Source of the DNA: Bacteroidaceae bacterium
Lineage (GTDB): Bacteria; Bacteroidota; Bacteroidia; Bacteroidales; Bacteroidaceae
Length of the DNA stretch: 64,000 nucleotides
Direction: 5' to 3'
Assembly: GCA_017469925.1 (NCBI GenBank)
Contig: JAFUFK010000020.1
Coordinates: 1-64,000, forward strand
The notes under the pieces are model-generated. The model did not search any database. It was not told the origin of the DNA and saw nothing but the letters and a program-made list of their open reading frames with translations. Both the position numbers and the translations under genes were made by a program. The number at the start of each line of letters is the position of its first letter. Positions within the stretch are counted from its first letter, which is position 1. Positions 11,205 through 54,581 of the stretch are shown piece after piece.

Positions 11205-11292
11205 AAGACGCGCATCTTACAGCCGAAAGACGCACATCTTACAAGCGAAAGACGCGCATCTTACAGCCGAAAGACGCGCGTCTTTCGGCACA
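11205..11292. repeat. 22-bp palindromic tandem array A (AAGACGCGCATCTT family)
   Basis: Four consecutive 22-bp units start at 11205, 11227, 11249 and 11271. Each begins AAGACGC(G/A)C(A/G)TCTT; with flanking bases the core is the near-palindrome GTAAGACGCGCATCTTAC, and the last unit holds the perfect palindrome AAGACGCGCGTCTT. The same family recurs at 46440-46527. The array lies in the 433-bp gap between the MNT gene and the beta-galactosidase. The rest of that gap holds a heptamer tract, AGCGCTT elements and a terminator, with no gene visible. Confidence 0.9.
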
Positions 11293-25802: not shown

Positions 25803-28460
25803 ATGAACTGGAAACGTATCGCACTGCTATTTCTCATTGCCTCATTTTCTCATTTTCTCACTCCCCTCTTCGCCCAGTACGAGGAGCATCGGGAACAGAA
25901 GGCAAGTGTAAACCGCCCCTTCGCGGACATCCCCGTCGTGGGCGACTTGCAAGAGGACAACACCCCCTCCCTTGGAGGGGGCAGGGGGAGGTTCAACTTC
26001 GACTGGCGCTTCCAACTGGGTAATCCCGAAGGGGCTGAGAGCGAGCAGTTCGACGACTCCGGGTGGCGACGGCTCGACCTGCCGCACGACTTCCAATGGG
26101 AACAGCCGTGGGACGAACGGGCTGGCGGGGCACGAGGCTTCAAGCCAAGGTGTGAGGGCTGGTACCGCAAGCACTTCCGGGCTCCCGAGGAGTGGAGGGG
26201 GCTGGAGGTTCTGCTCGACGTGGGCGGACTGATGTACTACGGCGACGTCTTTGTCAATGGGCAGAAGGTGGCCTCGTCGGAGTATGGCTATATAGGGTTC
26301 GAGGCCGAGGTGTCGCGCCATCTCCACTATGGAGCCGACAATGTGGTGGCCGTCTATGCCAATACGGGCAAGCCGAACGGCAGCCGATGGTACACGGGAG
26401 GCGGACTGTTCCGCGACGTCTGGCTGCGTCTGCAGAACCCGACGCACGTGGCACGGCACGGGATATATGTCCAGACCCTCCTCCCAACCTCCCCCCATAA
26501 TGGGGGAGGAGCAAAATCGGGTAACCAAAGTCCCTCCCCATCACGGGGGAGGGATTTAGGGAGAGGGTCTGCCACGGTAAACATTACCGTCGATGTCGAG
26601 GGCTTCCCGCACGGAAGCGGGGAACAGCCGCAGACGCTGGTGCGCGCCACGGTAAGAGACGGCGAGGGGAAGGCCGTCGGGCAGGCTGAAGCCTCCGTAC
26701 CCACCCTGACGAAGCATGGCCGGGACGAGATTGCCCTGCCTTCTATCGCCCTGACAAAGCCTACGCTTTGGGACATAGACAACCCTTATCTGTATTACGT
26801 AGAGGTGGACGTGATGGTCGATTCCTTGCTGGTTGACCGAAGGACGGAGCGCTTTGGCGTGCGGAATATCGAATACTCGCCGGAGTTTGGTTTCAAACTG
26901 AACGGGCGGAAGGTGTTCCTGAAGGGCATCGCCAACCACCACGACATGGGCGCCCTGGGCGCGGCCTCCTACGACGACGGCATCCGTCGCCAGTTCCAGA
27001 TGATGAAGGAGTTTGGCTTCAACTGCCTGCGCTGTTCCCATAATCCCTATAGCGAGAGCCTTACGCGCATTGCCGACGAGATGGGGGTGCTCATTGTGGA
27101 TGAACTCATCGACAAGTGGTCGGACGACGAATACTGGGGCGGGCGAAAGCTCTTCATGCAGATTTGGCCCGGCCTGATACAGGAATGGATAACGCGCGAC
27201 CGCAACTGCCCGAGCGTGGTATTGTGGAGCCTGGGCAATGAGTTGCAGATTCGCGACAACTGGTCGGGCTACAAGACCAACGACTGGGGCATCACGACGT
27301 ACCGCATCTTCGACCAGATGGTGAAGCGCTACGACCGGACCCGGCCCACCACCGTGGCCATGTTCCCAGCACGAGCAGGGGCTATACGTGAAGAAAAGGA
27401 GTTCAAGACGTACTTTGCTCCGCCCGAACTGGCCTGCCAGACGGAGGTCGCCAGCTTCAACTACCAGTGGGACTGCTACCCACGGTATTTCGAGTATAAG
27501 CCCGACATGATACTCTTCCAGAGCGAGGCCGTAACGAACCAGTTGCAGGCTCCCTTCTACGGGATGGACCGCGAACGCACCGTCGGCCTGGCTTACTGGG
27601 GCGCCATCGAGTACTGGGGGGAGTCGAATAAATGGCCGAAGAAGGGCTGGAACTACTCGTTCTTCAGCCATACCCTGCAGCCTTATCCGCAGGCTTGGCT
27701 CATCAAGGGAGCCTTCGAGCCAGAAGTGCCCGTGGTGCGCATCGGCGTGATGACGGGCAGCGAGACAGTCAGTTGGAACGCCATCGACGTAGGTCAGAAG
27801 ACCTATACCGAGTTGTGGAACTGCAAGGAGGGTTCGAGGCAACAGGTATCGACCTTCACCAACTGCGACGAGGTGGAACTCGTGCTTAACGGGCAGAGTC
27901 TTGGCCGACGGCAGAACGACACGACGGACGTCTTCCGCCGAGGTATCGTCAAGTGGGAAGTGCCCTATCAGGCCGGCACGCTCACAGCCATTGCATATAA
28001 TAAAGGTAAGGAGGTGGCCCGCCACCAGATAGCGACAGCCGGTAAGGCCGTGCGCCTGATTGTCGAAGAGGAAGAAATCACCTCTAACCTCTCACCTCTA
28101 ACCTCTAACCTTTCACCTCTCACCTCTAACCTCTCACCTCTCACCTCCCGTCAGCGCAAAGCGCTTAAGGCCGACGGAATGTCGCTTAAGTACCTGACCA
28201 TCCGTGCCGTAGATAAGCAGGGCCGTACCGTGCCCTCGTTCGACGAACCGCTGAGTGTCGCCATCGAAGGCGAGGCCACACTCGCCGGCCTGGACAACGG
28301 CGACCACTACACCGACCTGCTCTTCCACGATGTCACGACGAAGCCCATGCGCATGGGATACATGCAAGTCATCCTGCGCTCGACACGCAAGTCAGGCAAG
28401 GTCGTCGTACGAGCTCAGACGCCGTCGTTCAAGACCAGCCTGAAACTGGAAAGCAAGTAG
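25803..28460 (+). CDS. Exported GH2 beta-galactosidase-like enzyme with in-frame repeat insertions
   Basis: An 885-residue GH2 enzyme with a signal peptide (ending LTPLFAQ). Sugar-binding domain at about 70-220, Ig-like domain, then TIM barrel with acid/base Glu480 in WSLGNELQIRDN and nucleophile Glu575 in MILFQSEAV; C-terminal domains include DUF4982-like and Big-type folds. Three stretches are absorbed repeats: a C-rich hairpin near residues 53-64, two more at about 226-257 (PHNGGGAKSGNQSPSPSRGRD) at a domain boundary, and a 7-base tandem tract giving (TSNLSPL)x3 at about 760-785. All keep the frame. It is probably a beta-galactosidase or related exo-glycosidase, but specificity is uncertain. 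A GH53 endo-galactanase converges downstream. Confidence 0.88.
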   Translation: MNWKRIALLFLIASFSHFLTPLFAQYEEHREQKASVNRPFADIPVVGDLQEDNTPSLGGGRGRFNFDWRFQLGNPEGAESEQFDDSGWRRLDLPHDFQWEQPWDERAGGARGFKPRCEGWYRKHFRAPEEWRGLEVLLDVGGLMYYGDVFVNGQKVASSEYGYIGFEAEVSRHLHYGADNVVAVYANTGKPNGSRWYTGGGLFRDVWLRLQNPTHVARHGIYVQTLLPTSPHNGGGAKSGNQSPSPSRGRDLGRGSATVNITVDVEGFPHGSGEQPQTLVRATVRDGEGKAVGQAEASVPTLTKHGRDEIALPSIALTKPTLWDIDNPYLYYVEVDVMVDSLLVDRRTERFGVRNIEYSPEFGFKLNGRKVFLKGIANHHDMGALGAASYDDGIRRQFQMMKEFGFNCLRCSHNPYSESLTRIADEMGVLIVDELIDKWSDDEYWGGRKLFMQIWPGLIQEWITRDRNCPSVVLWSLGNELQIRDNWSGYKTNDWGITTYRIFDQMVKRYDRTRPTTVAMFPARAGAIREEKEFKTYFAPPELACQTEVASFNYQWDCYPRYFEYKPDMILFQSEAVTNQLQAPFYGMDRERTVGLAYWGAIEYWGESNKWPKKGWNYSFFSHTLQPYPQAWLIKGAFEPEVPVVRIGVMTGSETVSWNAIDVGQKTYTELWNCKEGSRQQVSTFTNCDEVELVLNGQSLGRRQNDTTDVFRRGIVKWEVPYQAGTLTAIAYNKGKEVARHQIATAGKAVRLIVEEEEITSNLSPLTSNLSPLTSNLSPLTSRQRKALKADGMSLKYLTIRAVDKQGRTVPSFDEPLSVAIEGEATLAGLDNGDHYTDLLFHDVTTKPMRMGYMQVILRSTRKSGKVVVRAQTPSFKTSLKLESK
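25966..25995. repeat. C-rich hairpin element inside the GH2 gene (first)
   Basis: CACCCCCTCCCTTGGAGGGGG followed by CAGGGGGAGG. Same family as 15536-15588 and 26481-26573; translated in frame near residue 55. Confidence 0.6.
26481..26573. repeat. Two adjacent C-rich hairpin elements inside the GH2 gene
   Basis: CCTCCCCCCATAATGGGGGAGG, then GTCCCTCCCCATCACGGGGG with a GGATTTAGGGAGAGGG tail. About 93 bases, in frame, between the sugar-binding and Ig-like domains. Confidence 0.75.
28081..28168. repeat. In-frame heptamer tract plus AGCGCTT palindrome in the GH2 gene
   Basis: About nine 7-base CCTCTAA/CCTCTCA/CCTTTCA units (28081-28149), then CAGCGCAAAGCGCTT (28153-28167). Because 3 x 7 = 21 the DNA repeat appears as a 7-residue peptide repeat TSNLSPL. 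It is the reverse complement of the composite element at 10287-10336. Confidence 0.9.
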
Positions 28461-35391: not shown

Positions 35392-36782
35392 AAATCATCA
35401 TCGCAGGCGCCGGGGCCGTCGGAAGCCATCTGGCCCAGTTGCTATCGAGAGACGACCAGGACATCGTGGTAATCGACGAGAGTCCTGAAAAGACGGATGC
35501 CCTGACCGACTCGGGCAACTACGACCTCATGACCATCAACTCGCCGACGAGCAGCATCGCCAGCATGAAGGAGGCCGGCGTGGCCCATGCCAACCTGTTC
35601 ATCGCCGTCACCCCCGACGAAGCCCGCAATATCACCTGTTGCATGTTGGCCCACACGCTGGGTGCCAAGAAGACGGTGGCCCGTGTCGATAACGCCGAAT
35701 ACATGCAGCCGCAGTATCAGGAAATCTTCCACCGGATGGGCATCGACTCGCTCATCTACCCCGAAGTGCTGGCCGCTCAGGAGATACTGGAAGGTCTGAA
35801 GCACTCGTGGGTGCGGCAGTACTGGGAGATACATGGTGGAGCCCTCATCATGATGGGCATCAAACTGCGCGACAATGCCCACATCCTCGACGTGCCCCTG
35901 CGCGAACTCTGCCCGCCCGACGCTCCCTACCACATCGTCACCATCAAGCGCGACGACCAGACCATCATCCCCGGCGGTAACGACTCTCTGCGACTGGGCG
36001 ACATTGCCTACTTCATCACCACACGCAAATACACCCAGCACATACGCGAACTCGTGGGCAAGGAGGACTACCCCGACGTGAAGAGCGTCATGATTATGGG
36101 GGGCGGCCGCATCTCCGTACACATGGCCCACAAGAAGCCCGACTGGGTTTCGATGAAGATTGTGGAACAAAGCGAGGAGCGCTGCAAACAACTCAACGAC
36201 CTGCTGGAGAACGACGACATCGTGGTCATACACGGCGACGGACGAGATACGGGGACACTCGTCGATGAAGGTATCAAGAAGTACCAGGCCTTTGCTGCCC
36301 TGACGCCTGAGACCGAGACCAACATCCTCGCCTGCCTCGCCGCCAAACGCCTTGGCGTGAGGAAGACGGTGGCACTGGTCGAGAACATGGACTACGTCAA
36401 CATGGCCGAGAAGCTGGACATCGGCACCATCATCAACAAGAAGACCATCGCCGCAAGCCACATCTACCAGATGATGCTCGATGCCGACGTTACGACCATG
36501 AAGAGCCTGACCATTGCCAATGCCGACGTGGCCGAGTTTGTGGCGCTCGAAGGTTCACTTATCACGCAACGCCCCATTCGCGAGCAACGCTTCCCGCAGG
36601 GCGTTACCCTGGGCGGTCTCATCCGCGACAAGATAGGTATGCCCATCAACGGCAACACGGTCGTCCAGGCCGGCGACAGCGTGGTGGTATTCGCCATCGA
36701 CGGTCTCATCAAGAAGATGGACCGCTTCTTCCGCAAACCCGAAGACGGACTGGTTTCAAAGATTATCGATAAACTTTCGTAA
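35388..36782 (+). CDS. trkA: Trk potassium uptake regulatory subunit TrkA
   Basis: A 464-residue cytoplasmic protein with two RCK_N-RCK_C halves that gates the TrkH potassium channel in response to nucleotides. The first NAD-binding loop is [19 protein letters not shown] (1-19) and the second [15 protein letters not shown] (about 226). It overlaps dxs by 4 bases, so the two are probably co-translated. No trkH follows; the next genes converge, and the last 27 bases overlap the 3' end of the DUF4435 gene. The channel partner must be encoded elsewhere. Confidence 0.93.
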
Positions 36783-37751
36783 GTCTTCCCTAAGCCTCTG
36801 ATAGGGCTCGGAAAGACGGAACTTCGTGCTCTTGCGCAGCATCTGGTCGATGGGCGACTGGCGATGCTGATAGCACGAGAGTTCGTTCTGCCGTTGCTGC
36901 GAGTGCACGGCATTGCGGCGAATCTCGGCCTCGCGCTCCTTACGCAACTGGGTACAGATAGGGGTGAGCAGGGGCAGGACGACATTCTCGAACACCGCAT
37001 GGCCTTGGATGTAGAGGTACGTATCCTCGGGCTTCAATCCCAGGGCAAGCAGTTCCTCGCGCAAGGGCTTATAGGTCTTCTTCCCTTGGGGATAGTGTTG
37101 TTGCATCCAGGCAATCTTTCGGTTGACTGTACGTCGCAACTGCTCGAGGCTTCGCTCGGGATGATAGGGATTGATGTTGCTCAGGGTGATGAGCCCGGCA
37201 AAGTCCATCAGCGTAAAGCGGCTGTAGCAGTCGTAGCGATAGACCCACACGTTCCAGACAAACAGTGGCCAGACGATGGTGCTGAACTCGGTCATGAAGG
37301 CCTCCAGGTTGACGATTTCTTTGTCATTAAGTGTGGCCATCACGCACACCTCGTGCAGCCCGCGCGAGTAGCACTGATAGTTCTCGATGGCATAGACGTA
37401 GGTGTGGAAGACAAAGGGGTTCTCGATGATTTCCTTCGACAGAGGGGTCTGCCCTTGCATCAAGTAGTCGTAGTCGGCATCGACGCAGGCAATGAGCGAC
37501 TCGCCCAACTGGTTGCCCAACTGATTGGCCAGGACGTTCTTCTTGCCCTTCCCGAGGTTGGTCTTCGAAGGGAGCATGACCTCGAAGGTCAGTTTGTCCG
37601 ACTCGAACTCATCGAGCACAGAGCGCCAGAAAAAGACATCGTCGTAGCTCTCGACATAGGCCACCACACGCCTCCGTTCCCTATCTGGCCGCAAACGGTT
37701 CGCCGCCGCCAGATACTCCGATGTCAAGTGTTCAGTAAGTCGCTTGCCCAT
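36756..37751 (-). CDS. DUF4435 (TOPRIM-like) protein partnered with an ATPase
   Basis: A 331-residue protein. The first part shows a TOPRIM-like arrangement: Glu34 in VVAYVESYDDVFFWRSVL, then CVDADYDYL with Asp91 and Asp93. This is the DUF4435 signature, found for instance in AriB of the PARIS phage-defence system, where it acts as a nuclease released by its ATPase partner. The remainder is helical and basic. It begins 10 bases after the ABC-type ATPase gene, so the two form an operon. The 3' end overlaps trkA by 27 bases. Nuclease activity and a defence role are inferred; similar pairs are widespread in Bacteroidales and could do housekeeping work. Confidence 0.82.
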   Translation of the reverse strand: MGKRLTEHLTSEYLAAANRLRPDRERRRVVAYVESYDDVFFWRSVLDEFESDKLTFEVMLPSKTNLGKGKKNVLANQLGNQLGESLIACVDADYDYLMQGQTPLSKEIIENPFVFHTYVYAIENYQCYSRGLHEVCVMATLNDKEIVNLEAFMTEFSTIVWPLFVWNVWVYRYDCYSRFTLMDFAGLITLSNINPYHPERSLEQLRRTVNRKIAWMQQHYPQGKKTYKPLREELLALGLKPEDTYLYIQGHAVFENVVLPLLTPICTQLRKEREAEIRRNAVHSQQRQNELSCYQHRQSPIDQMLRKSTKFRLSEPYQRLREDLRKFIDNL

Positions 37752-37761
37752 ATCGCGTCCG

Positions 37762-38580
37762 TTAGCCCACTATGATATCATCTACGTCGGTCACGCAATC
37801 CATCCAACCGTCCATGAAGACGGCAGGACTGTGGGTCGTCAGTATCACCTGTGCATTAGGATTGAGGTCGCGCACCAGCGAGATGAGGCGTTTCTGCCAT
37901 TCGAAGTGCAGGCTTACCTCAGGCTCGTCCATGAAGAGGACGTATGGTTCGCGGTTCTGTACCAAGACGGTCAGCAGGATGATGAGCATCTGCTTCTCGC
38001 CCGAGGAGAGTTGATAAGGCTCCAACACCTCGTCGTACTGGAGGAAGCGAATCTCGTTTTCGTCGCGTTTGATAGTCTTTCCCGTCGAGGCAAACAGGTC
38101 ATCTACGACATCCTGGAAGTGAGCCTTCTCGCCCACCATCGCCTGCGCCCGTTGCTGGGCATCGGGGTCACCCGAGGTCAGCAGGGCAATCATGCGGTTC
38201 GAGAGATTCACCTGATAGTCGAGATAGCGCCGCTGAAGCATGTAGAGTTGCAGGTCGAGTTCGGTCTGTAGCTTCATGTCCGAGACCTTCTGCAAGAGTT
38301 CGCCGGATATCACGCTGCGGTCGAACGAGCGTATCACGTCGAACCTTACCGAGTCGGCATCCTCCGGGCTATAGGTCAGGGTCACGCCGTCGAGGTTCCG
38401 GTCCAGGTCGCGATACTCGAGCAGTTGCTTCACAACCCGGTTCAGGATGGTCGATTTGCCCACCCCGTTCACTCCGCTTAATATATTCACTGTCGGGCTC
38501 AGTTCCCACACCACATGTCGGCGCCCACTCCACAGGGCGTCAATTTCTATTCGTTGGATGTAATCGCCTGTCTTCTTCAT
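37762..38580 (-). CDS. ABC/SMC-type AAA ATPase (AAA_21-like)
   Basis: A compact 272-residue ATPase: Walker A LSGVNGVGKST (35-45), signature-like LSSGEKQMLIILLTVL (about 190), Walker B YVLFMDEPEVSLH (about 213), and H-loop LTTHSPAVF (about 250). It lacks the long coiled-coil or insert regions of RecF and OLD-type ATPases and is shorter than PARIS AriA. It is the first gene of a two-gene operon with the DUF4435/TOPRIM protein; such pairs usually sense DNA or phage proteins through the ATPase. TATCTTTG at 38612-38605 lies 24 bases before the ATG. Confidence 0.88.
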   Translation of the reverse strand: MKKTGDYIQRIEIDALWSGRRHVVWELSPTVNILSGVNGVGKSTILNRVVKQLLEYRDLDRNLDGVTLTYSPEDADSVRFDVIRSFDRSVISGELLQKVSDMKLQTELDLQLYMLQRRYLDYQVNLSNRMIALLTSGDPDAQQRAQAMVGEKAHFQDVVDDLFASTGKTIKRDENEIRFLQYDEVLEPYQLSSGEKQMLIILLTVLVQNREPYVLFMDEPEVSLHFEWQKRLISLVRDLNPNAQVILTTHSPAVFMDGWMDCVTDVDDIIVG

Positions 38581-38612: not shown

Positions 38613-38761
38613 GAGTTTCAGCACGAAACTTCCAACAATTAAGGGCGAAATATTTTAGTAACAATTCATAAAAACCTTAATAATAATTAAATCAATTCGG
38701 CATATCTAACTATCAATCAGCAATAGTGTGTTTTAGAAAGTAACGAACAATCGTATGTTTT

Positions 38762-38822
38762 TTTGGTATGGTACTACTTTATTATTACCTTTGTATCGGT
38801 AATTAATAAAAAGTTACCGATA
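38762..38822 (+). promoter_or_regulatory. Promoter and start-site inverted repeat of the Cys-repeat peptide gene
   Basis: TTTG (38762-38765), 20-base spacer, TACCTTTG (38786-38793). Immediately after it TATCGGTAA (38794-38802) and TTACCGATA (38814-38822) form a perfect 9-bp inverted repeat with an 11-base loop. It covers the predicted transcription start, so it is either an operator or a hairpin at the extreme 5' end of the mRNA. The remaining bases 38613-38761 are AT-rich with nothing else recognised. Confidence 0.75.
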
Positions 38823-38850: not shown

Positions 38851-39057
38851 ATGAAAAGAATGGATTTGAGCTTTGCACACACAGCTCAGGGTTTTCTGAA
38901 AATGAGTGAAAAGCCCGCTGCATGCGGTAGTGCCTGTGGTACAGGTGACAAGCCTGAAGAGAAACCCGCTGCATGCGGTAGTGCCTGTGGTACAGGTGAT
39001 AAGCCTGAAGAGAAACCCGCTGCATGCGGTAGTGCCTGTGGTACAGGTGATAAGTAA
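38851..39057 (+). CDS. Three-repeat Cys peptide, probable RiPP precursor
   Basis: A 68-residue peptide. A leader of about 19 residues (MKRMDLSFAHTAQGFLKMS) precedes three 17-residue units, EKPAACGSACGTGDKPE twice and the same less its last two residues. Each unit has two Cys in a C-x-x-x-C spacing, within an ACGSACGTGDK block. At DNA level the units are 51-bp near-identical direct repeats. The next gene, 5 bases on, is a radical SAM/SPASM enzyme, the expected maturase. ACGX-type repeat peptides with radical SAM partners have been described as a predicted family in other bacteria (recalled, not checked). Thioether crosslinks at the Cys are plausible. The alternative is a metal-binding peptide. 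Confidence 0.85.
   Translation: MKRMDLSFAHTAQGFLKMSEKPAACGSACGTGDKPEEKPAACGSACGTGDKPEEKPAACGSACGTGDK
38906..39054 (+). repeat. 51-bp direct repeats, nearly three copies
   Basis: The coding repeats of the Cys peptide. The units are near identical at DNA level (AAGCCC versus AAACCC, GACAAG versus GATAAG), pointing to recent duplication or active homogenisation. Confidence 0.9.
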
Positions 39058-39062
39058 GCCTT

Positions 39063-40097
39063 GTGGATTACTTTGCTTTTCAGTGGCACATCACTGACGA
39101 GTGCGACCAACGTTGCAAGCACTGCTACATCTTTTCCGAAGGGCATCCTCGTTTAGTGACAATGCCTTGGGAGAGGATGGTGGCAGTGCTTGCAAACGTT
39201 GAGCGCATGGCCAAACGAATGCAACGCCTACCATATTTATATATAACAGGAGGTGACCCTATATTACATCCGCGCTTCTGGGACCTACTGGAGTTGCTGC
39301 ATGCCCATGGCATCCCCTTCACGCTAATGGGCAACCCCTTTCATCTTACGGATGAGGTATGCAAGCGTATGCGACAACTCGGTTGTCGCAAGTATCAACT
39401 TTCACTTGACGGGCTTCGTGAGACGCACGACCGCTTCCGCAAACCTGGTTCCTACGACCGAACGCTGGCAGCAATTTCCACCATCCGCCGTTCTGGAATG
39501 CATTGCGCTATCATGACTACAGTCTCGGCCACCAACATCGCCGAGATACCATCGCTGATAGATGTTGTTGTGGAACATCAAGCAGACATCTTTGCCTTTG
39601 GACGCTACTGCCCAACGAGCGAAGACAAGGCCCACTTGGAAGCCTTTCATATCACGCCCATGCGCTATCGCCAGCTACTGGAGGCCTGTTGGAGGAAGTT
39701 CAAACTACATCGCGACAGCAATACGAGTTTCAACCTGAAAGACCATCTTTGGACTCTCTACCTCTACGAAGAAGGCATTTTCCAGATACCCGAAGGACTG
39801 ACCGAGGAGACCATCTATGACGGTTGCAACTGCGGTAACTGCCATTTCACTATTTCGGCCGAAGGGAGGCTGATGGCCTGTCGCCGCTTCGAAAGCTACG
39901 TCGGATCTGTAGATGAAGATATGTACGACATCTTCTACGGGCCAAAGATGGAACAATACCGTCAGCACGAACGCTTCGAGAAATGTCGCCGGTGCCCACT
40001 TCTCCGCTTCTGTCGCGGATGTCCCGCCGTCGCCTACGGATATACGAAAAACTTCTATGCTCCCGACCCACAATGCTGGCGCATAATAGACGACTGA
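39063..40097 (+). CDS. Radical SAM/SPASM peptide maturase
   Basis: A 344-residue enzyme. The radical SAM 4Fe-4S motif is CX3CX2C at C14-D-Q-R-C18-K-H-C21, followed by the TGGDP glycine motif. The C-terminal SPASM region is Cys-rich: CNCGNCHFTISAEGRLMACRRF, then CRRCPLLRFCRGCP and a late Cys (PDPQC), enough for auxiliary clusters. The start is a GTG at 39063, five bases after the peptide stop, with no strong Shine-Dalgarno, consistent with coupling. Such enzymes install thioether or C-C bonds in ribosomal peptides, and the upstream Cys-repeat peptide is the obvious substrate. No dedicated peptidase or transporter gene follows, so export is unexplained. Confidence 0.88.
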   Translation: MDYFAFQWHITDECDQRCKHCYIFSEGHPRLVTMPWERMVAVLANVERMAKRMQRLPYLYITGGDPILHPRFWDLLELLHAHGIPFTLMGNPFHLTDEVCKRMRQLGCRKYQLSLDGLRETHDRFRKPGSYDRTLAAISTIRRSGMHCAIMTTVSATNIAEIPSLIDVVVEHQADIFAFGRYCPTSEDKAHLEAFHITPMRYRQLLEACWRKFKLHRDSNTSFNLKDHLWTLYLYEEGIFQIPEGLTEETIYDGCNCGNCHFTISAEGRLMACRRFESYVGSVDEDMYDIFYGPKMEQYRQHERFEKCRRCPLLRFCRGCPAVAYGYTKNFYAPDPQCWRIIDD

Positions 40098-40139: not shown

Positions 40140-40436
40140 ATGTCAGAAAAAATGATTAGACTCAATGCTTTTTTCACACTGAAGGAAGGCGTCAGCACTG
40201 AAGATGTGCTGGCAATTACCAACGAACTCGTAGCCAAGAGCCGACAAGACGAAGGCAACATCGGGTACGACTTGTACCAAAGCACCACCAACCCGCGCGT
40301 GTTCATGTTCTGCGAATCATGGGAGAATGCTAAGGTTCTGGATAAGCACTCCAAGGCTCACCACTTCACTGCCGCCGTGCCCAAACTGGGAGAACTGACA
40401 ACCGACGGGCTGAAGATTGAAAACTTCGAGAAGTGA
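40140..40436 (+). CDS. ABM-domain putative quinol monooxygenase
   Basis: A 98-residue ferredoxin-like antibiotic biosynthesis monooxygenase (ABM) protein: LNAFFTLKEG, the NELVAKSRQDEGNIGYDLYQS core, and FMFCESWENAKVLDKHSKAHHF with the family His. Members (YgiN type) oxidise quinols or degrade small aromatics as cofactor-less dimers. It overlaps the next gene by one base (TGATG) and lies 42 bases after the radical SAM gene. The link with an oxidoreductase and an HxlR regulator suggests quinone or electrophile stress. Confidence 0.85.
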   Translation: MSEKMIRLNAFFTLKEGVSTEDVLAITNELVAKSRQDEGNIGYDLYQSTTNPRVFMFCESWENAKVLDKHSKAHHFTAAVPKLGELTTDGLKIENFEK

Positions 40437-41407
40437 TGCGGGCTATTGTCATTGAAAAATGCTGCAAGGCAGAGGAGTTGCACGTCTGCGAGATACCCGT
40501 GCCTGAGGTACGTCCCGGTTGGGTGTTGATAAAGGTTCATGCTGCGGGTTTGAACCACAGCGAGGCATTGTTGCGCATGTATGAGGCAGATAACGAATAC
40601 ATCAATACGCCTGTTGTGCCTGGCATTGAATGTGTGGGCGAGGTTGCCGACCCATCGGATTCCCACCTGACAAAGGGTGATAAGGTCATTGCCCTGATGG
40701 GGGGCATGGGACGCTCGTTCAACGGCAGTTACGCTGAGTATGCCTTGCTACCCGAAAAAAACGTATTCCGAATTAACTCCAACCTTGATTGGGTGTCACT
40801 TGCCGCTGTGCCCGAGACCTACTACACAGCCTACGGGTCGCTCTTCGAATGTTTGCGACTCACGAAAGACGATACCCTACTTGTACGCGGAGCGACCAGT
40901 ACCGTCGGTCAAGCAGCCATTCAGTTAGCCAAAGCCATAGGAAGCCAGGTTATTGCAACGGGCAGGCGAAAGTCTTCCTTCGCAATGCTTCAGTCTATTG
41001 GGGCCGACTATTGTCTTATCGATGATGGGGTACTAAGTTCCGCCCCCTATGGGCAAGAACTACCGCGCCCCAATAAGATTCTGGAACTCGTCGGACCGAA
41101 GACCCTTCGCGACTCCCTGCTTACCGTCAGTCGTCCTGGCTACGTCTGCAATACAGGCATACTCGGCAATGTATTCACAGTGGAGCACTTCGACCCCATC
41201 AAATACATTCCCAATGGTGTGTTCCTGACAGGGTTCTACTCCAACTACCCGACTCAACCGAACATCGATGGGCTATTCAACCTCATCAACAGAAGCGGGA
41301 TTCAGCCGCTCTATAATAGGGTTTTCACCCTCGATGAAATTACTCAAGCCCATTCTTTACTTGAAGCCGGTGGGGCTGGAGGCAAAATTATTCTACAAAT
41401 ATGGTAA
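40436..41407 (+). CDS. MDR-family NADPH:quinone oxidoreductase
   Basis: A 323-residue zinc-independent medium-chain reductase: N-terminal GroES-like domain (VPEVRPGWVLIKVHAAGLNHSEALLR, PGIECVGEV) and a Rossmann domain (DTLLVRGATSTVGQAAIQLAKAIGSQVIATGRRKS). No structural or catalytic zinc Cys set is seen, which fits quinone oxidoreductases. It reduces quinones or enones with NADPH in the cytoplasm. It overlaps the ABM gene by one base and the HxlR gene by 7 bases, so the three form one translation-coupled unit. Confidence 0.88.
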   Translation: MRAIVIEKCCKAEELHVCEIPVPEVRPGWVLIKVHAAGLNHSEALLRMYEADNEYINTPVVPGIECVGEVADPSDSHLTKGDKVIALMGGMGRSFNGSYAEYALLPEKNVFRINSNLDWVSLAAVPETYYTAYGSLFECLRLTKDDTLLVRGATSTVGQAAIQLAKAIGSQVIATGRRKSSFAMLQSIGADYCLIDDGVLSSAPYGQELPRPNKILELVGPKTLRDSLLTVSRPGYVCNTGILGNVFTVEHFDPIKYIPNGVFLTGFYSNYPTQPNIDGLFNLINRSGIQPLYNRVFTLDEITQAHSLLEAGGAGGKIILQIW

Positions 41408-41778
41408 GAGAACAAGTTATAGACCCCTTTTTCCCACAATGTCCCGTACGCAACGTGCTGAGCCGAATTGGAGGCAAATGGCCACTATTAGTTTTACTAA
41501 CGCTCGACGAGGCCAAGGCGCCCCTACGTTTCACCGAGATTGAACGGAAAATTGGGGATATTTCACAGAAAATGCTGGCGCTGACACTACACGAGTTAGA
41601 GGCCGATGGGCTAATTAAACGACAAGCGTTTGCCGAGGTACCGCCTCGCGTGGAATATAGCCTTACTGAACGGACGCAGACTCTAATGCCCCTTCTTCAT
41701 CAGCTTGTTGGCTGGGCACTAGACAACCTAAGCGGTATTGTCCATGACCGCGAGGTGTTCAAAGAAAAATACTCTTGA
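41401..41778 (+). CDS. HxlR-family winged-helix regulator
   Basis: A 125-residue HxlR/DUF24 regulator. It has the N-terminal redox-type Cys in FFPQCPVRNVLSRIGGKW, the winged helix LRFTEIERKIGDISQKMLALTLHELEADGLIKR, and the wing VPPRVEYSLTE. Related proteins (YodB, HypR) sense quinones or oxidants through this Cys and repress nearby oxidoreductases, so it probably controls the ABM-reductase pair. The 9-bp inverted repeat before the Cys peptide gene is a possible site, but no matching repeat was found before the ABM gene. The 3' end overlaps the convergent glycerate kinase gene by 20 bases. Confidence 0.9.
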   Translation: MVREQVIDPFFPQCPVRNVLSRIGGKWPLLVLLTLDEAKAPLRFTEIERKIGDISQKMLALTLHELEADGLIKRQAFAEVPPRVEYSLTERTQTLMPLLHQLVGWALDNLSGIVHDREVFKEKYS

Positions 41779-46439: not shown

Positions 46440-46527
46440 AAGACGCGCATCTTACAGCCAAAAGACGCGCATCTTACACGTGAAAGACGCACATCTTACA
46501 GCCGAAAGACGCGCGTCTTACAAACCT
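46440..46527. repeat. 22-bp palindromic tandem array B (same family as array A)
   Basis: Four 22-bp units at 46440, 46462, 46484 and 46506, each starting AAGACGC(G/A)C(A/G)TCTTAC. As in array A, the last unit is the perfect palindrome variant (AAGACGCGCGTCTT). It lies between convergent genes and is flanked by short CACCTAAGAG repeats (46400-46410, 46528-46540) and ACCTATAGGT. No gene is visible in the gap. Confidence 0.9.
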
Positions 46528-54456: not shown

Positions 54457-54484
54457 ATTATCAGTCAGCTACTGTCAACCTGGG

Positions 54485-54572
54485 GTTGTGCCACCAATGG
54501 CACCGGGTTGTGCCACCAATGGCACGGAGTTGTGCCACCGATGGCACGGGATTGTGTCACCTATGGCACGGG
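54485..54572. repeat. 22-bp palindromic tandem array D (TGTGCCA family)
   Basis: Four 22-bp units at 54485, 54507, 54529 and 54551 with a partial fifth. The core GTGCCA-CCAA-TGGCAC is a 16-bp inverted repeat, and units differ at one to a few bases. It lies between convergent transcripts and ends 10 bases before the rprY stop. Confidence 0.9.
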
Positions 54573-54581
54573 GATGTGTCC

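Follow-up and report, generated by a model that had tools for sequence, protein, structure and literature searches.

Mycofactocin is a radical S-adenosylmethionine (SAM)-modified peptide that works together with dedicated oxidoreductases. Among enzymes that act on cysteine, the ranthipeptide enzyme PapB follows a Cys-X3-Asp/Glu thioether register (PMC9413430), and SbtM acts on either cysteine or selenocysteine (PMC11002830). In the lipoyl SirTM operon, which also encodes two oxidoreductases, the protein modified by SirTM is a carrier that cooperates with oxidoreductases, and further SirTM targets are described as unknown (PMC11490716, PMC4518038). Here we compare with these systems a gene pair, acgA-acgM, encoded on a 64,000-nucleotide stretch of contig JAFUFK010000020.1 from a Bacteroidaceae bacterium (this whole stretch is referred to as the window). 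An earlier note on this DNA had described a self-repeating cysteine peptide next to its own radical SAM/SPASM enzyme, a probable ribosomally synthesised and post-translationally modified peptide (RiPP) system. We found that the pair recurs across bacteria and archaea in tight gene runs together with one of two unrelated reductases. These operon partners, which had been missed, point to an intracellular role in redox or electrophile stress. In the open-licence literature we found no described product or function for the ACGX system, acgA or acgM, and the main text of a survey of Bacteroidales RiPPs (PMC10352776) mentions neither HxlR nor nitroreductase nor TIGR04. The operon partners, the reductase swap, the operator-like repeats and the co-occurrence with the MDR gene are new here for the ACGX system. 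The two genes are as follows.

38851-39057, forward strand: acgA, ACGX-repeat peptide (TIGR04341, 64.1 bits, cut-off 28), with three ACGSACGTGDK units behind a leader some 20 residues long

39063-40097, forward strand: acgM, radical SAM/SPASM enzyme of the ACGX system (TIGR04340, 549.6 bits, cut-off 400)

The open reading frames of the window agreed with the earlier description of a 68-residue peptide with three near-identical ACGSACGTGDK units, encoded 5 bases (39058-39062) before a radical SAM/SPASM gene. The peptide gene starts with ATG and contains six cysteine codons, with no stop codon read as selenocysteine, and the gene for the enzyme (344 aa) starts with GTG. The earlier note had spoken of predicted families of such peptides with radical SAM partners, and NCBIfam profile searches now gave both families a name. 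As both proteins scored beyond the curated cut-offs, acgA and acgM are by profile the already predicted pair known as the ACGX system. TIGR04341 was matched by 34 of 38 related peptides at E 0.05. A check of the enzymes for an unrelated substrate class, suggested in the earlier note, placed all 45 AcgM relatives scanned in TIGR04340. The CxxxCxxC and SPASM cysteines of AcgM fall in invariant or nearly invariant alignment columns. The near-identity of the 51-bp DNA units was borne out by Tandem Repeats Finder (38914-39054, 2.8 copies, 98% matches), where the array had the highest score (275) among 16 rows for the window, and a 39-bp segment common to all three copies showed pairwise identities of 97.4-100%. 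The earlier note had suggested that unit number may vary between strains; variation was seen at the level of species, with 0 to 5 double-Cys units among 59 peptides.

One genome each for 84,980 species was scanned, which yielded 65 ACGX loci, and genome searches added further loci (locus L001 duplicates the window and L112 duplicates L043). Peptide and enzyme genes were adjacent, within about 1.2 kb, in 74 of the 76 loci with upstream sequence. This count combines 63 of 64 loci with at least 300 upstream bases and 11 of 12 further loci (L111, L113, L137-L145 and L148), with five loci of fewer than 300 upstream bases set aside. Peptides standing consistently without a radical SAM partner, which the earlier note had named as evidence against its proposal, were thus not the pattern, and because this recurrence comes together with curated cut-offs passed by both proteins, we consider the arrangement to be beyond chance. 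As the loci are mutually related and were collected via enzyme similarity, p-values would overstate their independence, and ratios are the numbers to be read throughout. The two unpaired enzymes were those of L058, whose contig ends behind a panB (ketopantoate hydroxymethyltransferase) gene, and of L113 in genome G423. A panB gene lay between acgA and acgM in L033 and immediately before acgM in L058 (identified by Pfam on the L033 copy, which the L058 gene resembles). L113 is a long-branch member of TIGR04340 with no ACG peptide, MDR, nitroreductase or HxlR gene in the stretch read, and its neighbours are small genes with below-cut-off matches of the RelB/YafQ toxin-antitoxin type.

The distribution of the system is patchy, since just 3 of 61 near relatives of the window genome passed. 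Among 393 genomes of the order (the enzyme and peptide searches were taken as covering the same sample) the enzyme cut-off was passed by five and the peptide cut-off by three, all of which also have the enzyme; of the other two genomes, G298 carries a divergent ACG peptide that the TIGR04341 model missed, while in G423 the stretch read contained none. In the phylum sample of the Oscillospiraceae locus L096, 6 of 299 genomes passed the enzyme cut-off. Weak TIGR04341 matches in G294, G077 and G044 were below cut-off, came with no TIGR04340 match at 1e-60 and were dropped. By record title, carriers were Prevotella-like and other Bacteroidales, Clostridia, Treponema and one methanogenic archaeon. 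A ruminant animal or the rumen was named in 41 of the 65 locus titles, a share that may be due to sampling, as most loci come from metagenome-assembled genomes (MAGs). Contigs of such genomes can be misassigned, and L070, titled Oscillospiraceae, fell among Bacteroidales on the enzyme tree. Copies of the pair were present on plasmids of Roseburia, Subdoligranulum and Methanosphaera. Among the best 8 of 155 plasmid records, four matched at 54-58% identity (two being versions of one record) and four at 28% or less. On the Methanosphaera plasmid pNP174 (L139) the peptide unit differs, with glutamate at +3 after the cysteine, the enzyme is annotated as two coding stretches, and BREX genes are nearby. 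Two ACGX loci per genome were seen in one yak MAG (L057 and L064, on two contigs) and at two sites of the archaeal genome G431. A viral origin of the system was considered and not supported as a phage trait; the single relative on a viral contig (L137) has ordinary ABM, nitroreductase and HxlR neighbours.

Directly downstream of acgM the window encodes three further genes on the same strand.

40140-40436, forward strand: ABM-domain protein (Pfam: antibiotic biosynthesis monooxygenase; PF03992, 58.6 bits)

40433-41407, forward strand: MDR oxidoreductase of the quinone-reductase type, overlapping the ABM gene (PF08240/PF00107; nearest solved chain quinone oxidoreductase 4dup)

41401-41778, forward strand: HxlR-family regulator, overlapping the MDR gene (PF01638, 93.8 bits; solved relatives YybR, HxlR, YodB and QsrR)

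The gaps in front of these genes are 42, -4 and -7 bases. HxlR-family relatives such as the four named have redox and quinone roles. Many loci showed comparable same-strand runs behind the enzyme, with genes overlapping or a few bases apart, namely MDR-HxlR, ABM-MDR-HxlR, nitroreductase-HxlR, PNPOx/4Fe-4S protein-MDR-HxlR and PNPOx/4Fe-4S protein-nitroreductase-macrodomain-SirTM. In other loci HxlR was encoded upstream of the enzyme, often on the opposite strand. On a plasmid of Roseburia sp. 831b the genes carry the NCBI names acgA, acgM, nitroreductase, 4Fe-4S binding protein, protein-ADP-ribose hydrolase and Sir2. Across 77 loci, HxlR was found near acgA-acgM in 55, the PNPOx/4Fe-4S protein in 27, SirTM in 17 and the macrodomain in 14.

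The two reductases replaced each other. When the region from 2.2 kb upstream to 3.7 kb downstream of the enzyme start was searched at E 1e-10, 38 of the 77 loci had only the MDR gene, 30 only the nitroreductase gene, none both and nine neither, and the two are mutually exclusive at this threshold. Short nitroreductase matches (about 40 residues) over the last part of acgM in MDR loci were disregarded, the start of the query having been read from another frame of the enzyme gene. Three of the nine loci (L036, L038 and L110) carry MDR fragments at contig ends, and two are cut, L058 upstream and L088 downstream. A reductase of either type lay within 1.5 kb in 39 of 41 ACGX loci and in none of 22 control loci, which hold other radical SAM genes of related genomes; for HxlR the corresponding figures were 27 of 41 and 0 of 22 (5 of 27 control and 25 of 66 ACGX loci being too short, and L110, L112, L114 and L115 left out). 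On the enzyme tree, built by a quick method with some long branches flagged and with L077, L094, L095 and L139 (enzyme cut or split) not included, parsimony gave 14 partner switches, at least six of them forced by starred branches. Because two unrelated reductases replace each other, we infer that they probably serve one shared reaction, and this either/or use suggests that the reaction is a single definable one. Two further gene types stood in these surroundings. In L046, L048, L050, L052, L057, L060, L064 and L068 a double-ABM protein, identified by Pfam on the L068 copy, was encoded within about 5 kb of the enzyme, and in L035 and L040 the ABM and MDR genes are separated by a small tautomerase-like gene (PF01361, 23.1 bits, cut-off 22).

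We also considered that acgA-acgM had merely been inserted into an old HxlR-MDR operon. Matches to the window MDR at E 1e-40 occurred in 2 of the 61 relatives, both of them acgM genomes. At E 1e-35 they occurred in 5 of the 393 order genomes, three at 71% identity or more in acgM genomes and two at 41% (G075 and G426) in genomes where the stretch read contained no other partner. Relatives at 70% identity or more were confined to acgM genomes in both samples (2 of 61 and 3 of 393), and because genomes without acgM yielded no relatives this close, the insertion idea is rejected for the MDR gene. Some acgM genomes lacked a listed MDR match: G020 has the nitroreductase instead, G423 has neither, and G298 has a fragment at a contig edge (58% identity), absent from the matches listed for the 393 genomes. 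The corresponding test for the nitroreductase is weaker: among the 61 relatives it was found in the acgM genome G020, with a 40% relative in G039, while in G014 a nitroreductase-HxlR pair is cut by the contig start and acgM was not found.

This working-unit pattern also bears on the idea that AcgA is a plain thiol buffer, its cysteines untouched by AcgM and the partners being passengers of a mobile stress island. The cysteine content (6 of 68 residues) and the stress-type neighbours would allow this, but the pairing, the reductase exclusion and the MDR-acgM co-occurrence argue for a working unit, and the cysteine context is tightly kept, with 352 of 374 cysteines in 61 related peptides following alanine and 362 preceding glycine. 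We consider a plain buffer to be highly improbable.

Upstream of acgA we recognised the following elements.

38726-38744, no strand assigned: operator-like element GTGTG-N9-GTAAC, right half GTAAC intact, left half degenerate, three mismatches

38786-38793, forward strand: TACCTTTG, TAnnTTTG promoter element, by sequence match

38794-38822, no strand assigned: perfect 9-bp inverted repeat TATCGGTAA-N11-TTACCGATA, candidate HxlR operator by sequence reading

TAnnTTTG is presumably the -7 promoter type of Bacteroidota, and such a box was present at the right distance for 33 of 59 peptides. GTTAC-N9-GTAAC-like repeats stand at many Bacteroidales acgA promoters. The repeat was found with at most one mismatch in 14 of 61 upstream regions, four of them exact, as compared to a mean of 0.43 and a maximum of 3 in shuffles, none exact, and spacers from 5 to 13 other than N9 gave only 0-3 regions within one mismatch. 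Allowing two mismatches and both orientations, the 33 promoters had the repeat just downstream in 17, upstream in 15 and on both sides in 10 cases (shuffle means 0.3, 1.2 and 0.01). In the window, the 38726-38744 element occupies the position of the relatives' repeats, and the inverted repeat at 38794-38822 differs from them by one mismatch in one of two orientations. The HxlR-type regulator probably binds to these repeats.

Several lines of evidence bear on what AcgM does. AcgM probably targets cysteine, given that this is the residue on which SbtM and the thioether enzymes both act and that its A-C-G context is conserved. The second-best family of AcgM is SbtM (TIGR04082), with 173.8 bits at a cut-off of 350, over profile positions 199-515 of 516 only, i.e. 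the C-terminal two thirds; this family was likewise matched by all 45 relatives. The score to the PapB family NF047865 was 53.8 bits (cut-off 340). By fold comparison, anSME, 5why/5wgg, SkfB and SuiB were tied, and SbtM and PapB were not named among the best 50 matches, which excludes neither. In the peptides, the residue at +4 is aspartate or glutamate for 177 of 187 C-G cysteines without a cysteine at +4, and at none of the positions +1, +2 and +3 did an acid occur (0 of 194-195 C-G cysteines each); the first cysteine of a pair, with cysteine itself at +4, accounts for 167 of the 374. Profile and context thus favour a thiooxazole and the acid at +4 favours a thioether. We tentatively favour the oxidation of each cysteine to a thiooxazole, as by SbtM; a Cys to Asp/Glu thioether at i+4 is possible, and some other chemistry is rather doubtful.

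The thioether-type logic that the earlier note saw in this locus is favoured by the PapB-like register but not by the enzyme, which scores better with SbtM than with PapB. As a full explanation, it would have AcgM join each unit-final cysteine to the acid at +4, so that small rings follow one another along the peptide, which may be exported or not, and we regard this ranthipeptide-like system as somewhat unlikely. A further explanation would make the system an anaerobic counterpart of the captophorins, with AcgM-made thiooxazoles and a peptide that acts as a buffer for copper or some other soft metal. In its favour, no characterised family is nearer than SbtM, the ACG repeats recall the EGKCG repeats of stress-linked, copper-binding thiooxazole metallophores (PMC12668002), and the window peptide weakly matches the MovA family (E 0.015, 15.2 bits, cut-off 33). 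This match was however found in only one of 38 peptides, and no metal pump, metallochaperone or metal regulator was recognised in the recurrent families (by eye and Pfam) or in the Roseburia stretch, so that we judge metal buffering improbable.

We propose instead, with even confidence, that acgA-acgM is the core of a redox or electrophile-stress operon encoding an intracellular, cysteine-modified peptide buffer. The HxlR-type regulator would sit on the promoter repeats and be released under thiol-active stress, upon which AcgA would be made and AcgM would modify its ACG cysteines in the cytoplasm. The mature peptide, rich in sulfur, would remain intracellular and serve as a scavenger or redox carrier, and the one dedicated oxidoreductase, MDR or nitroreductase, would act on the peptide or on the compound it has captured. 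Such an intracellular role is favoured by the partners, by the HxlR regulator and by the fact that no exporter was recognised. The earlier note had already remarked on the missing protease and exporter; there is none among the five operon genes of the window, nor was one recognised among families recurring in at least three loci (beyond the named partners, by Pfam on single representatives). An antimicrobial or signal peptide that leaves the cell through a general exporter would fit the short leader, the repeated core and the patchy distribution including plasmids, and on the Roseburia plasmid acgM is preceded, at a distance of about 2.5 kb, by a gene for an MFS transporter. The partner enzymes are, however, of cytoplasmic type, and in some loci just about nine residues precede the first ACG; peptide N-termini vary by lineage (MKR..., MALKNLF, MTANEIF). 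We therefore hold export to be very unlikely.

Several observations weigh against the proposed intracellular buffer. Besides the MFS gene, a family in seven loci resembles an ABC-transporter auxiliary domain, below cut-off. The acid at +4 suits a thioether better than a thiooxazole, the SbtM match reaches half its cut-off over part of the profile, and sulfur locked in a thioether would make a scavenger role less natural. HxlR, MDR and nitroreductase genes are common stress genes. L065, L066 and L090 have neither reductase in the stretch examined, likewise L113, whose enzyme stands without peptide or partners, and in L079, which has the MDR gene, a stretch some 2 kb upstream weakly resembles a nitroreductase (26% identity, E 3e-8), short of the threshold. 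The promoter repeat is weak or absent (at least three mismatches) downstream in 16 and upstream in 18 of the 33 promoters, and the window's upstream copy is a half-site.

The SirTM loci suggested a further extension of the proposed stress role. Of the 17 SirTM genes near acgA-acgM, 12 belonged, judged by record title or search group, to lineages other than Bacteroidales, and some were on the opposite strand (L034, L060). SirTM has the solved relative 5a3a and the macrodomain 8rsi, which we take to be a zinc-type macrodomain. We found no open-licence paper that brings together three of the subjects macrodomain, radical SAM, SPASM and sirtuin. As a speculation that we think unlikely to hold in full, the mature ACGX peptide could itself be a gene-encoded redox cofactor or scavenger in peptide form that a dedicated reductase of either of two unrelated folds recharges; in SirTM operons it would replace lipoyl-GcvH-L and be the unknown target of SirTM ADP-ribosylation, freed by the macrodomain and switched by stress. 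This link offers a concrete candidate for the targets of SirTM pairs where no lipoyl carrier is encoded, a question raised in PMC11490716. More generally, the ACGX system had looked like a potential secreted natural product, and its context now makes it look more like a mobile stress module that works inside the cells of bacteria and archaea.

Elsewhere in the window, two 22-bp tandem arrays 35 kb apart (11205-11284 and 46440-46522) share one consensus unit, and further short arrays lie at 54482-54578 (22-bp unit) and 28078-28147 (7/21-bp unit). Just upstream of acgA, on the reverse strand (36756-38580), a gene for a DUF4435 protein (PF14491) adjoins one for an AAA/ABC-type ATPase (AAA_21) that weakly resembles retron and defence ATPases; the two are possibly a defence pair.

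Compared with known systems, the locus differs from exported, bacteriocin-type RiPPs in lacking a dedicated exporter or leader protease among its five operon genes. With captophorins and bufferins it shares repeated Cys-Gly motifs and the stress link (PMC12668002), but its enzyme is a radical SAM protein and not an MNIO, its motif is ACG and not EGKCG, and no copper genes were recognised nearby; beside the window precursor no MNIO gene was present, the other operon genes being ABM, MDR and HxlR. The Cys-X3-Asp/Glu register is common to the ranthipeptides of the PapB/freyrasin type, but AcgM falls far under the PapB cut-off and many ACGX cysteines have a cysteine at +4. From mycofactocin the system differs in its enzyme (78.1 bits to the maturase family TIGR03962, cut-off 265) and in its repeated core. 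The resemblance to SirTM/zinc-macrodomain operons lies in the SirTM and macrodomain genes of part of the ACGX loci, whereas neither GcvH nor lipoate ligase appears among the annotated genes of the Roseburia stretch (other loci were not searched for either), and neither SirTM nor a macrodomain was present from about 6.5 kb upstream to 7.5 kb downstream of the window enzyme start, unlike in an extended SirTM operon. SbtM is the best other family of AcgM, with a score of half the cut-off and a match beginning far inside the profile. The closest likeness is to the predicted ACGX system itself, as the window pair passes the curated cut-offs of both TIGR04340 (rSAM_ACGX) and TIGR04341 (target_ACGX).
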